Origin: Tilletia caries
Lineage: Eukaryota > Basidiomycota > Exobasidiomycetes > Tilletiales > Tilletiaceae
Direction: 5' to 3'
NCBI GenBank assembly: GCA_032718865.1
Contig: JALUTQ010000033.1
Location: 806,001-870,000 of the forward strand
DNA: 64,000 bases
The notes under the pieces were generated by a model. That model saw only the letters and a program-made list of their open reading frames with translations. It ran no database searches and was not told the origin of the DNA. A program made the position numbers and the translations under genes. This document shows positions 14,921-34,633 of this stretch, one piece after another (position 1 is the stretch's first letter; every line of letters begins with the position of its first letter).

Positions 14921-15039
14921 ACCCCAACTCAAACACGATGCCATGTCCGAAGGCCAGAGAGCCACGTGCTGATGGTGACGAAGGAGAATTTGCCTGCATG
15001 CTGAATGATGAAGTATTTCAGGAGCTCAGGAGAACACCA

Positions 15040-15470
15040 AATCTTATCGAAACACTTCAATTTCAGCTTTAGGAGTCTATATAATTCCTTTGCAAGAGTT
15101 TACGGCCCCAAACCTGCCGAAAGACACAGTTTTTGACCCATTCTGCCGAGAAGGCCCTTAAAAACCGGTCATGTGACTCAGGTTTGGCCATCACGTGACC
15201 CAATTTGCCATGCCCGGAGTCCGTTGGACTCCGGGATCGTTTCAATCTGTCCCGTTCTCCGAGGCCTTTTGACAATGCAAGTAAACCCTCTCCGTACTCC
15301 GCAGCGTTGCAGCGATACTTTCGCAAAGTAGTTCCGCAAATCGAAAGCTATTTGAACGACGTTAAATTCTCGCTCCGTGCTTCTTACACGTGCGGAGCCT
15401 CCTCCGGGAGTCCGCGGAGCTCCAGGAAGTGCTACTCCGGCGCCCACTCTGGAACTTCTGTAATCTGAGT
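15040..15470 (+). repeat. Diverged copy of the TAAGGATCTTCC hAT MITE
   Basis: It aligns with the 3' two-thirds of the MITEs at 17681 and 24019. Shared blocks are TTATCGAAACACTTCAATTT-like sequence, AAAAACCGGTCATGTGACTC, GGCCATCACGTGACCCA and GAAGTGCTACTCCGGCGCCC. The terminal repeat on the right is degraded and the left third is missing. Confidence 0.65.
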
Positions 15471-16996: not shown

Positions 16997-17680
16997 TCAT
17001 TCTGATGAGAAGTATAAGCCATACGGTGAGAGAATGGTCTGTTAGTGATCGATGCTGGTGACGATTGCTGATTGGCTGGACTCACAGGTAGCTCTCGAGC
17101 GATCTCCTCGTCTTCTTGGATGTTCATATCCCCACCGTGCTTCACCCCTGCTCGTCAAAGGGCGACCGCTCTTACTTCTTCATTTCGTTATCGCTGGATG
17201 ACTTGGCTGATCCGATAGACATCGGCTTGTTCGTATCGCTGTCTTGGTCTGGCTATCCTCCTCCATATCCCGGGCCGCAGGGCCTTCCTGATCACTCTGT
17301 TGCTCAAGAGCGTCGCTCGCTTTTGACTGAGGAAGCTGGAGACAAGCAGACGAAGACGAACTGCGAATGTCAGTAGGGAGGAGCGTGAACAACACAGGGG
17401 ACGAGAGATAATTACTCACACTGGTAAAGTTAACGCGGTAGAACATGGCCTGGGAAATTTGCTCTTGAACCTATCTTCTCGGCCAAATCTCGCATTGAGC
17501 TCGCACCACGGCGACACCTCCTTGAAAGTAGTCCTCGACGGCGTTGGCATTGCGACAAAGAAACTATGGAGGCAGACCCGTCAGATTTATGCACAGTCCC
17601 CACAGTCCAAAGCACACTTGTTACACTCACGGAGGAATTTCCCTCGCTCGAATCTCCTTGATGAACCGCTGTCGATCCGG
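16997..17680 (-). pseudogene. Hypothetical gene, 5' end removed at the hAT MITE
   Basis: Reading down from the MITE boundary at 17680: DRQRFIKEIRAREIPP, a GTGAGT donor and CCATAG acceptor, then FLCRNANAVEDYFQGGVAVV, CEIWPRR, a TAG stop, VQEQISQAMFYRVNFTS, and a further donor. Later exons include an acidic Ser/Gln-rich part (ALEQQSDQEGPAARDMEEDS) and GGDMNIQEDEEIARELP. A 47-bp intron (17039-17085) and a short last exon end near 16997. The internal TAG and the lost 5' part suggest a pseudogene. No family recognised. Confidence 0.45.
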
Positions 17681-18337
17681 TAAGGTTTTTCCCGAAGTAC
17701 GTCCCCGGAGCCCAGACTCTGGGGCGGCGCTCCGCTCAGCTCCGTCTGAGATCTGGCTAGCTCCGCGCTCCGCCAATTTTTTGGTGATCACCTGGCGATC
17801 ACTCCGTGCTCCGTCGAAGTCGCGGTTGCGCGCCAGAATTTACTCCGTGCTCCGTACATGTTTCACAGGTGGACTCCGTGCTCCGCAAAATAGCTCCGCG
17901 GACTCCGGGCTACTCCCGGGTGTCATGAAATGAGTCCAACATGGGCTCAGGAGAAGGTCAAATCTCATCGAAACAGTTCAATCGCAGCTTTAGAAGTTTA
18001 TATCATTCCTTTCCAAGGGCTTACTGCCCCATAAAAGCTGAAATACACAGTATTTCGACCTGATTCGGCCGAGAAATCCTTCAAAAACCGGTCACGTGAC
18101 TCAGTTTTGGCCATCACGTGACCCACTTTGCAATCCTGGGCTTTTTTGACAATGCAAGCAAACTCACTCCGTGCTCCGGGGCATTGCAGGCATACCTTTG
18201 CGGAGTAGCTCCGCAAATCTAAAGCTAGTAAGAAAATGCTCAAATCTCACCGTGCTCCGTACTCGTGCAGAGCGTCCTCCGGAGTCCGCGGAGCTCCGGG
18301 GAATGCTACTCCGGGGCCCACTCCGGGAAGATCCTTA
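17681..18337. mobile_element. hAT-type MITE, TAAGGATCTTCC family, copy 2
   Basis: This 657-bp element closely resembles the complete copy at 24019-24677. The right terminus is ACTCCGGGAAGATCCTTA; the left terminus has degenerated to TAAGGTTTTTCCCGAAGTA. The interior carries CTCCGTGCTCCG motifs and a CACGTGAC pair. Its right end lies 3-4 bp from the end of Fanzor homology (copy 1). The flanking 8-mers do not match, so a target duplication is not demonstrable here. Confidence 0.8.
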
Positions 18338-18340
18338 CTC

Positions 18341-19684
18341 GATCGTTATCTGCTTTGATCAACGCTTTGAGGAAGATGTTTCGTGCTCCGCCGCAATCTC
18401 GATCGGCAAAAGCTCCACAGCCTTGGCAGCTATGGAACTGTGCACCGCCAAAATTGTGCTTGAGTCGTCCGCAAGCCGAGCGCGCCTTGCTCGTATATTT
18501 TTCTGTGCATGGGACGTACTCAGCCGCGAATCGGAGCCGGGTCCAGAAGCGGCCGTGGGCCCAAGTCATCATCGCTCGTACGGTCTTGCGAGTGATTTTC
18601 CGTTTCCCGCGTCGACGGTCGAGACATCTGGTGGGCATTGAACTCCGGACACAGCATGTACTCGTATCGCTTTGTCAGCCAAGCCGCGAACTTTCTGTGA
18701 AGATCGTCGACCAGACTTTTGATCTTCTTGCGCATCCGGCTTGCAGCTCGCCGCATCTTGTACCGCTTCTTGGCCCGTATCTTTGTCATTCGTGACAGCA
18801 GATCGTCCAAAAAAAATGCTCAGCCGGAAGAGACGGCACTTGTCTCCTTCCCCCCACTTGACGACTTAGGCTCGAAGGGGATCGTATCCGGTTGCAAAGC
18901 AACGGACACCAGGATCGATCGAGCAAATTTTGCCGGCTGAGGACACGTCTCTTGGCTTTCGAGACGAGCCTTTTTTTGGTACATAGATGTACCATTCGCC
19001 GTTCTCGACCATCATGTGTGTGTCGGCCGCCAGGGTGTCGTCGATGGGCTCGTCAGCGCGAATGCGACCAAATTTGAAAGCCCGGGAATATAATATCCCT
19101 TTGCGCCAAGCTTTTTTCTTAATGGAGATGGTTCCGAATCCCGCCCGTTTTTTCTTGAACTTGATCTTGAAGGTGTGAGAGGAATTTTTTCGCTGCTTGG
19201 CGAAGTTGGTCGAGAAGACATTTCTGGCCTCACGCATTGCGTCGTCGCGGATATGAAACGGCGTGTCCAACGCCCAGGTGTTTTCCGTCTTGAAGCACTC
19301 TGTGTCTAAGTGCCGATCCCGAAGCTCCTTTAGCGTAAGGAACCCCTTTAGCGTAAGTAGCCTCCTTTAGCGTGAGTACCCGTCCCGCCTCATTAATTGC
19401 CGCCACGCTATGGTTGTAGGTCCATAAGCTGGCGCCGACCGCCTTGCGCCATGCTTCTTTCTGCCTCTCCGTGGGCTTCAGCTTGGATTTCCGGATTAGC
19501 TTGCTTCTTGATCTCGGCGAGCTCCTTGATCTATGGGGACGGCAGCGATATTTGAATGTGATGACACGGAGATTTCGAGGTTCCGGACATGGATCTTGAA
19601 CCATGAGTGTGTGTCTTCAGGCATCCATCGTGCTTCGTCGACGACCTTTCTTGGAGATTGGACTAAAGGCCACCGTTGTCCCAC
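18341..19684 (-). pseudogene. Fanzor (eukaryotic TnpB-like RNA-guided nuclease), copy 1, decayed
   Basis: Segments in N-to-C order on the minus strand: SWFKIHVRNLEI (about 19600); KLKPTERQKEAWRK and LWTYNHSVAAINEAG, the TnpB/Fanzor N-terminal helical motif (about 19490-19390); ALDTPFHIRDDAMREARN (about 19265); SIDPGVRCFATGYDPLRA with the RuvC-I Asp; LLSRMTKIRAKKRYKMRRA; KRKITRKTVRAMMTWAHGRF; the Zn-finger GRLKHNFGGAQFHSCQGCG; and ADRDCGGARNIFLKAL, the RuvC-III DRD (codons at 18396-18404). Lesions: a frame change near 19500, a 37-bp insertion by triplication of CTTTAGCGTAAG (19325-19375), TAA at 18866-18868 where copy 2 has CAA, one extra base in the A-run 18809-18816, a frame change near 18640, and the first Zn-finger Cys replaced by Arg (KARSACG). 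Fanzors cut DNA guided by an omega-like RNA; this copy cannot be active. Confidence 0.9.
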
Positions 19685-20375
19685 AGTTCCGACCCGTTTC
19701 GTCCAAGCGCTCTTCTGTTCTTCTGGCCGATGCCTTTTGGAGGAGGTGTGGCTTGAGGAGGCGGCGGCTGCTGCTTTGGCACCGGACCCAGAAGCTGGAC
19801 GCGATAACGAGTTACGACGGAGAGTAAGGATTCGAGTTACGACAGAGAGTAAGGATTAAGGATGAGCAGAGGTTTCTTATTTTCACGCACGAGATAACTC
19901 ACCTGAAGGCTGAGGTTGTGCTGCTGCCGGGGCGTCTTCTGCGTTGTTTATGTGAGACGAACTGTCACTGAATGACAAGGGAAAGAATGGATGGGTATAA
20001 CTAACAAGTCAGTTCCATGCTGTTTTTCACTGGGCTGAGTATGTGCCGGGAAACGCAGGCACGTACCTCGATGCACTGAGATGTGCTGCACGTGATCTGG
20101 ATCTGTGTGGGCGCGTCGGTGTCGTGGCGACTGATCGATCGTCGAGTCCCAGCGATGCGCGAGGACGAGGTGGAAGGGGAAAAAAGAACGGTCCTAGTCA
20201 GACTCTTAATCTAGTGATAATAATGAAATGAGAAAAAATAACGAAATGAAAAGGAAAGAAAAATGAAAAATTAGAAAAAAAAGCCAAAAAAAGGCAAATA
20301 ACAACGGGAAATGCCTACAGAACAAAAAAAGTTCAACAAAACACACTGACCATAGAGTCTCAGCGAGGGTGGAGG
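19685..20375. other. No gene recognised; A-rich tract at 20220-20335
   Basis: 19690-19860 has a GC-rich open frame on the plus strand, but it is the upstream flank of the Fanzor copy and has no motif. 20220-20335 is almost entirely A/G on the plus strand. Nothing is assigned. Confidence 0.3.
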
Positions 20376-24018: not shown

Positions 24019-24677
24019 TAAGGATCTTCCCGGAGTAGATCCCCGGAGCCCGGACTCCGGGGCGACGCTCCGCTCAGCTCCGTCTGAGCTCTGGCCAGCT
24101 CCGCGCTCCGCGAGATTTCTGGTGATCAGCTGGCGAGCACTCCGTGCTCCGTCGAAGTTGCGGTTGCGCGCAAGAATCTACTCCGTGCTCCGTATCTTTT
24201 TCACAGGCGGACTCCGTGCTCCGCAAAATAGCTCCATGGACTCCGGGAAACTCCGGGGTGTCATGAAGTGAGTCCAACATGGGCTCAGGAGAAGGTCAAA
24301 TCTCATCGAAACAGTTCAATCGCAGCTTTAGAAGTTTATATCATTCCTTTCCAAGGGCTTACTGCCCCATAAAAGCTGAAATACACAGTATTTCGACCTG
24401 ATTCGGCCGAGAAATCCTTCAAAAACCGGTCACGTGACTCAGTTTTGGCCATCACGTGACCCACTTTGCAATCCTGGGCTTTTTTGACAATGCAAGCAAA
24501 CTCACTCCGTGCTCCGGGGAGTTGCAGCCATACCTTCGCGGAGTAGCTCCGCAAATCTAAAGCTAGTAAAAGAATGCCCAAATCTCGCTCCGTGCTCCGT
24601 ACCCGTGCAGAGCGTCCCCCGGAGTCCGCGGAGCTCCGGGGAATGCTACTCCAGGGCCTACTCCGGGAAGATCCTTA
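24019..24677. mobile_element. hAT-type MITE, TAAGGATCTTCC family, complete copy
   Basis: Perfect 19-bp terminal inverted repeats TAAGGATCTTCCCGGAGTA (24019-24037 and reverse complement 24659-24677) are flanked by an exact 8-bp duplication CACACTAT (24011-24018 and 24678-24685). Its length is 659 bp. It has CTCCGTGCTCCG motifs on one side, CCGGAGTCCGCGGAG on the other, and paired CACGTGAC sites in the middle. It sits within the MULE, downstream of the ULP1 coding region, so it is younger than the MULE insertion. An apparent 81-codon frame (24336-24581) is shared with the 17681 copy only because the DNA is similar. Confidence 0.92.
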
Positions 24678-24747
24678 CACACTATGGTGGTAATAATGCT
24701 GGTGAGTGGTGAGGGAAATTGGTAGTTCATGAGGCCTAAAGGCAGAG

Positions 24748-33643: not shown

Positions 33644-34633
33644 GTCGATCGTTATCTGCTTTGATCAACGCTTTGAGGAAGATGTTTCGTGCTCCGCCGC
33701 AGTCTCGATCGGCAAAAGCTCCACAGCGGCACAGCCTTGGCAGCTATGAAATTTTTCTCCGCCCATATTGTACTTGAGTCGTCCGCAAGCTGAGCACGCT
33801 TTGCTGGTATATTCTGCTGTGCAAGAGACGTATTCTGTCGTGAATCCGAGTCGGGTCCGGAAGCGGCCGTGGGCCCAGTTCAACATCGCTCGTAAGGTCT
33901 TCCGAGTGATCCTCCGTTTTAGAAATTTGGTGAGCATTGAACGCCGGACACAAGATGTACTCTTATTGCTTTGCCAGCCAAGCCGCAAACTTCTTGTGAA
34001 GATCATCGACCAGGTTTTTGATCTTCTTTCGCATCCGATTTGGAGCTCGCCGCATTCTGTACCGGTTTTTAGCCCGTACTTGTGTCATTCGAGACAGCAG
34101 ATCGTCCAAAAAGATTCCAAGCCAGAAGATACGGAACTGGTCTCCCTCTCCCCACTTGACGACTTGGGCTCGAAGGGGATCGTCTACAATTGCAAAGCAA
34201 CGTACACCAGGATCGATAGAGCAATTTTTGACGGCTGAGGACTGGTCTCTTGATTTCCAAGAAGAGCCCCGCTTCGGTACAAACATGTACCATTCGCCGT
34301 TCTCGACCATGCCACCATGATGTGTGTGTGTGGCCGCCAGGGTGTCATCGATGGGCTCGTCAGCCCGAATGCGACCGAATTTGAAAGCGCGGGGATATGA
34401 TATCCCTTCGACCCAAGCTGCCTTCTCAATCGAGATGGTTCCGAACCTCGCCCGTTTCTTCTTGAACTTGATCGTGAACGCGTGAGAGGGGTTTTTTCGA
34501 CGCTTGGCGAAGTTGGTCGAGAAGGCATTTCTGGCCTCACGCATTGCGTCGTCGCGGATATGAAACGGCGTGTCCAACGCCCAGGTGTTTTCCGTCTTGA
34601 AGCACTCTGTGTTTACGAACCGATCTTGAAGTG
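33644..34633 (-). pseudogene. Fanzor (eukaryotic TnpB-like nuclease), copy 2, 5'-truncated
   Basis: Homology to copy 1 runs from LQDRFVNTECFKTENTW (34633) through ALDTPFHIRDDAMREARN, GRIRADEPIDDTLAA, SIDPGVRCFAIVDD (RuvC-I Asp), KWGEGDQFRIFWLGIFLDDL, NRMRKKIKNLVDDLHKKF, then a TAA at 33963-33965 (TAC in copy 1). After a frame change it continues RRITRKTLRAMLNWAHGRF, EYTSKACSACGRLKYNMGG (the Glu and both proximal Cys retained) and FHSCQGCA. An 8-bp insertion CGGCACAG at 33727-33734 then shifts the frame, so the DRD motif is lost although its bases remain. The N-terminal LKPTERQ region is absent; text upstream of 34633 is unrelated. Homology ends at TCGATCGTTATC (33644), the same point as in copy 1. 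Confidence 0.9.

Follow-up and report, generated by a model that had tools for sequence, protein, structure and literature searches.

A dead Fanzor2-type copy in Tilletia caries and the probable one-ended, possibly Helitron-driven mobilization of its living relatives

How do Fanzors, the eukaryotic RNA-guided nucleases of the TnpB type, move when their loci have neither terminal repeats nor a transposase? We addressed this standing question from a 64,000-nucleotide stretch of the Tilletia caries genome (contig JALUTQ010000033.1, positions 806,001 to 870,000), hereafter the window. The excerpt of PMC10432273 available to us describes Fanzor2 (NlovFz2 and MmeFz2 among its members) as broadly distributed in fungi, with loci lacking inverted repeats or a clear transposase; two of its three examples without terminal repeats or transposase are Fanzor2, and a function distinct from that of TnpB is suggested. 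A Fanzor pseudogene (copy 1) was located on the minus strand of the window at 18339..19735 by profile search, tblastn and PDB matching. It is almost certainly a Fanzor2-type relic, and the data are probably best explained by a dead copy whose living relatives undergo one-ended, Helitron-like mobilization. Since the genome offers 19 fetched loci of a related family, most of them with junctions that can be read, and two further families of like asymmetry, this movement becomes testable by comparison between assemblies.

The blocks named by a first-pass annotation were all present on the minus strand in the order it had claimed, and their coordinates were read from the translated window. KPTERQKEAW (19478-19449) lies in an N-terminal HTH_OrfB-like block (19389..19490, tblastn frame -3), followed by the RuvC-I motif SIDPGVRCF with its DPG signature (18896..18922; D and P invariant in a 28-row alignment) and the block ITRKTVRAMMTWAHGRF (18596-18546). 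A zinc-ribbon remnant (18414..18506) and the RuvC-III motif ADRDCGGARNIF (18372..18407) were found by tblastn and translation. The alternative RuvC-II Glu codon (TEKYTSK, 18501..18503) aligned with the invariant E421 of the related family A and is kept, as are the RuvC-I and RuvC-III Asp residues. The CxxC zinc finger survives only in part, the first Cys of the first CxxC being lost (TSKARSACG). The C4 finger is whole in family A, and the loss in copy 1 is damage to this relic, not a trait of its lineage.

The stretches resembling family A and Tilletia proteins passed through frames -1 (from approximately 19735, weak), -3 (19490-19389), -1 (19336-18821), -2 (18810-18619) and -3 (18614-18369), and tblastn and translation placed an in-frame TAA at 18866..18868. 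Copy 1 thus carries one stop and no fewer than four changes of frame, the lesion count that the annotation had given; its proposed extent, 18341..19684, was close, with similarity starting about 50 bp further 5' and ending at 18339. In the Pfam search, PF07282 matched the piece 18306-18674 above the cut-off (34.6 bits, cut-off 26.3, E 2e-8), PF12323 matched 19230-19616 slightly under it (19.5 bits, cut-off 21), PF01385 gave only E 0.07 with 18520-18819, below the cut-off, and 18866-19366 matched no family at E 1. With a family-A protein as the query, tblastn gave E 2e-63 across linked pieces, at 31-56% identity over the aligned pieces. The top PDB match of the C-terminal piece was a TnpB-like protein from a mimivirus, the entry for which bears the title Fanzor2. 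A homologue search with this piece alone returned none; cut pieces are known to perform poorly as queries.

The Fanzor2 assignment was made from the best sequence and fold match, mimivirus Fanzor2 (TnpB-like L79, PDB 9b0l), which ranked first in the match list while a Spizellomyces Fanzor1 ranked 35. The DPG and the alternative Glu are further points of likeness; in family A they are D286-P287-G288 in RuvC-I and E421 in RuvC-II of the 28-row alignment, the criterion following the part of PMC10711439 available. Family A also matched PF07282 and PF12323 above the cut-off and PF01385 below it. TnpB and Cas12f share a fold and occurred in the same match lists, and another RuvC nuclease, such as a Cas12-like gene or a TnpB introduced by bacterial contamination, could therefore be imagined. 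We regard this as extremely unlikely: the window sits in a genome of 38.1 Mb (40 contigs), the nearest proteins with a name come from Tilletia, an apparent intron is present in family B, the nine Tilletia rows form a single clade (Shimodaira-Hasegawa-like approximate likelihood ratio test, SH-aLRT, 98) and mimivirus Fanzor2 was the best match every time. The annotation's reading of a Fanzor gene in a basidiomycete was therefore borne out, and the window fossil itself is a further member of a known Fanzor kind.

Intact relatives, whose presence elsewhere in the genome had been raised as a possibility, were found in family A, the sister family of the window lineage; none of the lineage of copy 1 itself was intact among the genome matches examined. 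Family A was sampled as 19 fetched loci. It has five open reading frames (ORFs), which are under purifying selection (pooled dN/dS 0.42), and copy L014 was 99.0% identical to a T. laevis protein over 418 residues. Judged by its proteins, the genome belongs to the T. caries/laevis/controversa group. Family B comprises three copies (L009, L010 and L011) with an apparent intron, and its counterpart is a T. laevis protein labelled transposase by one source. A genome search with the end of the L033 ORF and part of its untranslated region (UTR) detected nine copies of family C. Members of this more distant Fanzor-like family (L032-L038) have open frames of up to 666 residues; their RuvC-II Glu sits at the canonical position (VVLPEFM) and their zinc cysteines are lost, and family C is possibly nearer to Fanzor1. 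Contig C34 is crowded with all three family-B copies, seven of the nine family-C copies, one family-A copy and a lone further PF07282 match (L031).

We then compared the ends of the copies. When aligned to L026, the copies that reach the 3' end stop at the same base, and their beginnings vary. The family-A terminus was identical in 17 of the 19 loci, the fetched stretches of the other two (L014 and L016) containing no terminus, and 18 of 20 genome matches to the last 105 nt of the family reached the last or last-but-one base. Beyond the terminus the 3' flanks differed in all but one pair. A genome-wide upstream search gave nine distinct 5' start points in family A, one shared by four copies and another by four. 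In family C, L036 and L037 have about 7.6 kb in common at 96-99%, ending exactly at the element 3' end. The asymmetry of one exact and one ragged end was present in all three families, and a few other flank matches were scattered repeats. On these alignments, the one-ended pattern is very probably real.

Several 5' flanks contained parts of host genes. The flank of L026 holds the antisense 5' part of QCR6; an apparently complete QCR6 (cytochrome b-c1 subunit 6, UCR_hinge by Pfam) lies on contig C22, and no Fanzor was found in the 2.5 kb fetched around it. L025 carries an antisense PUP1-like proteasome beta subunit, whose C-terminal domain recurs in L017, and L023 an antisense PRE3-like proteasome beta subunit, of which 375 bp are common with L018 at 99.5%. 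Antisense NDUFS1 and ATG5 were found in the flanks of L022 and L020, respectively. In family B, L009 adjoins a gene for ATP synthase g, a piece whose identity is supported by Pfam but not by the PDB comparison, and the 5' end of L010 lies close to where this gene starts; L011 and L009 have part of the 5' flank, but not the 3' flank, in common. Pfam matches above the cut-off were obtained for 5 of 20 flank ORFs, all antisense, in a sample biased by the choice of 18 antisense ORFs. None of ten sense ORFs matched Pfam. Among the 20, matches below the cut-off came from two sense ORFs of family C and from two ORFs of family B in antisense orientation.

The exact end coincides with a conserved and structured region. 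Across ten family-A copies, the last 105 nt were 99.3% identical, compared with 96.9% for the coding sequence, and the rest of the 3' UTR was 89.8% identical in eight of those copies. The predicted RNA fold of the 105 nt had a z score of -3.84 with the terminal UGCAGC paired, and that of the family-B 3' end a z score of -2.16. The family-A region fits an omega-RNA scaffold, for which the adjacent flank would be the guide.

Candidate enzymes were sought in the genome with Pfam models. The serine recombinase of IS607 (PF00239) had no match in the T. caries genome vs matches in 10 of 14 control genomes, and the Y1 transposase of IS200/IS605 (PF01797) had none vs 5 of 14. The Helitron Rep model (PF14214) gave 60 matches in the T. 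caries genome, and a role of this enzyme on Fanzor elements is putative. Helitrons and Helitron2 elements are marked by a CTRR or ATIR end and an A/T or TTTT target. Neither a CTRR end nor a clear flank base preference was seen at the Fanzor ends, the ends of the genome's own autonomous Helitrons being unreadable for comparison. When the first nine flank bases were sought near the 5' junction in 20 copies, there was no exact match and one copy (L023) had one mismatch; control junctions of other copies gave 1-3 mismatches at best.

A second relic of the lineage of copy 1 lies on the minus strand of the window at 33645..34631, with 84% identity across 1003 aligned columns. Its start is 3' of that of copy 1, but both end at the same base; it has Ala at the alternative RuvC-II Glu position and contains an in-frame TAA at approximately 33965-33963. 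Adjoining copy 1 at 18338 is a repeat of 659 bp (17680..18338) whose inverted ends match imperfectly. It recurs in the window at 24019-24678 (93%) and 15024-15452 (72%) and, among the matches listed, has at least 38 further scored occurrences genome-wide. Because this repeat abuts copy 1 and takes most of the matches (38 of the 40 scored matches listed for that stretch hit the repeat and not the relics), sequence beyond the common end of both relics may have been lost.

We propose that living members encode a Fanzor protein and derive an omega-RNA from the folded 3' end, the flank after that end serving as the guide, as known TnpB and Fanzor biology would suggest. The elements very probably spread by one-ended copying: in the alignments the 3' end is exact, and the other end lies at an arbitrary distance upstream, past the promoter and often within a host gene, whose 5' part is then carried in antisense. 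The likeliest engine would be an HUH Rep of the Helitron type that works in trans, a proposal to which we give somewhat less than an even chance, and the nuclease might help the genome to keep or copy the element. A bolder version, which we think rather unlikely, is that the Fanzor2 element has no left end of its own: jumps would start exactly at the scaffold/guide boundary and run upstream until a chance stop, and head-to-head landings would pick up strong host promoters that are then carried along, giving a promoter-stealing, RNA-guided, one-ended transposon.

Several results weigh against one-ended, Helitron-like mobilization. Some are what an ordinary two-ended transposon would give, with its left end inside the shared part and the raggedness produced by segmental duplication or nested insertions. 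The 5' starts of L021 and L015 are later insertions, as pieces resume further upstream (DNA interrupting L021 was assigned to hAT by eye, a name dropped when Pfam gave no match), and L013 and L027, evidently duplicated, have the 3' flank in common but not the 5' end. Nevertheless, nine start points without a common left border, the same asymmetry in three families, and a common 3' stop in 17 of 19 loci, which duplications would not produce, make this reading improbable. When 12 copies were searched for target duplications, their longest words in common were 3-6 bases, close to shuffled sequences; the comparison says little about L017, L018, L020, L021, L023, L025, L029 and L030, where capture or interruption of the flank hides the outer 5' border. 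Neither a target duplication nor a clear preference for target bases was seen, unlike in one-ended Helitrons of Chlamydomonas, and none of the 20 matches to the family-A 3' end was a non-Fanzor element. The scaffold is also not supported throughout: the family-C 3' end folded no better than shuffles (z -0.10) and the window relics gave mixed values (z -2.18 and 0.28). Moreover, the two relics are nearly identical in the first ~90 as well as the last ~85 aligned bases and not in the middle, so the match of their last bases does not necessarily point to a scaffold.

Target-primed reverse transcription by an enzyme of the long interspersed nuclear element (LINE) type would start from an RNA ending at the structured 3' end and be truncated 5'; exact 3' ends and variable 5' ends are typical of LINE copies. 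However, the copies keep the region upstream of the TATA-like box and antisense host-gene sequence, retain an apparent 5'-UTR intron in family A and an apparent intron in family B, and show neither a tail nor a target duplication, and we hold this route to be quite improbable. RNA-guided homing without a transposase, by a guide-matched cut whose repair copies upstream from the 3' boundary, would likewise leave ragged 5' ends and a precise 3' end where scaffold meets guide. Guide-directed insertion was not supported by the 3' flanks of families A and C, which were no more alike than the control: the first 14 bases agreed at a mean of 5.40 vs 5.46 in family A (136 pairs) and 5.8 vs 5.4 in family C (15 pairs). 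The family-B pair L010 and L011 matched at 10 of these 14 bases, which no family-B control pair reached, and is a possible exception, by chance or guide-like. The present data speak against homing, which has a small probability in our view.

One-ended mobilization has a described counterpart. In the part of PMC3627910 (Bao and Jurka) available, Chlamydomonas CRe-1, CRe-2 and CRe-3 are 5'-truncated Fanzor1 Helitrons whose behavior is called one-ended transposition; like the Tilletia elements, they have intact 3' ends, variable 5' ends and occasional captured upstream sequence. The same text shows the differences: the CRe elements are Fanzor1 whereas those of Tilletia are of the Fanzor2 type, they mostly have target duplications and a T-rich target, neither of which was seen in Tilletia, and a shared end with a Helitron is hypothetical for the Tilletia Fanzors. 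Of the 80 listed prokaryotic loci nearest to family A, many were cyanobacterial (top identity ~29-35%), a likeness to the cyanobacterial IS607 TnpB called 'pro-Fanzor'. According to the available text of PMC10711439, the latter prokaryotic TnpBs are paired with a serine recombinase, whereas the Tilletia genome had no Resolvase match.

We found no publication linking Fanzor with Tilletia, and the literature on TnpB in basidiomycetes had nothing on this subject, judged by title. As far as the excerpt of PMC10432273 describes Fanzor2, the Tilletia elements differ from it by one exact and one ragged end and by captured 5' parts of host genes, and this variant of a Fanzor2-type element is what is new here. 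If the proposed movement is true, an RNA-guided nuclease would be linked to one-ended transposition and to the capture of host promoters.
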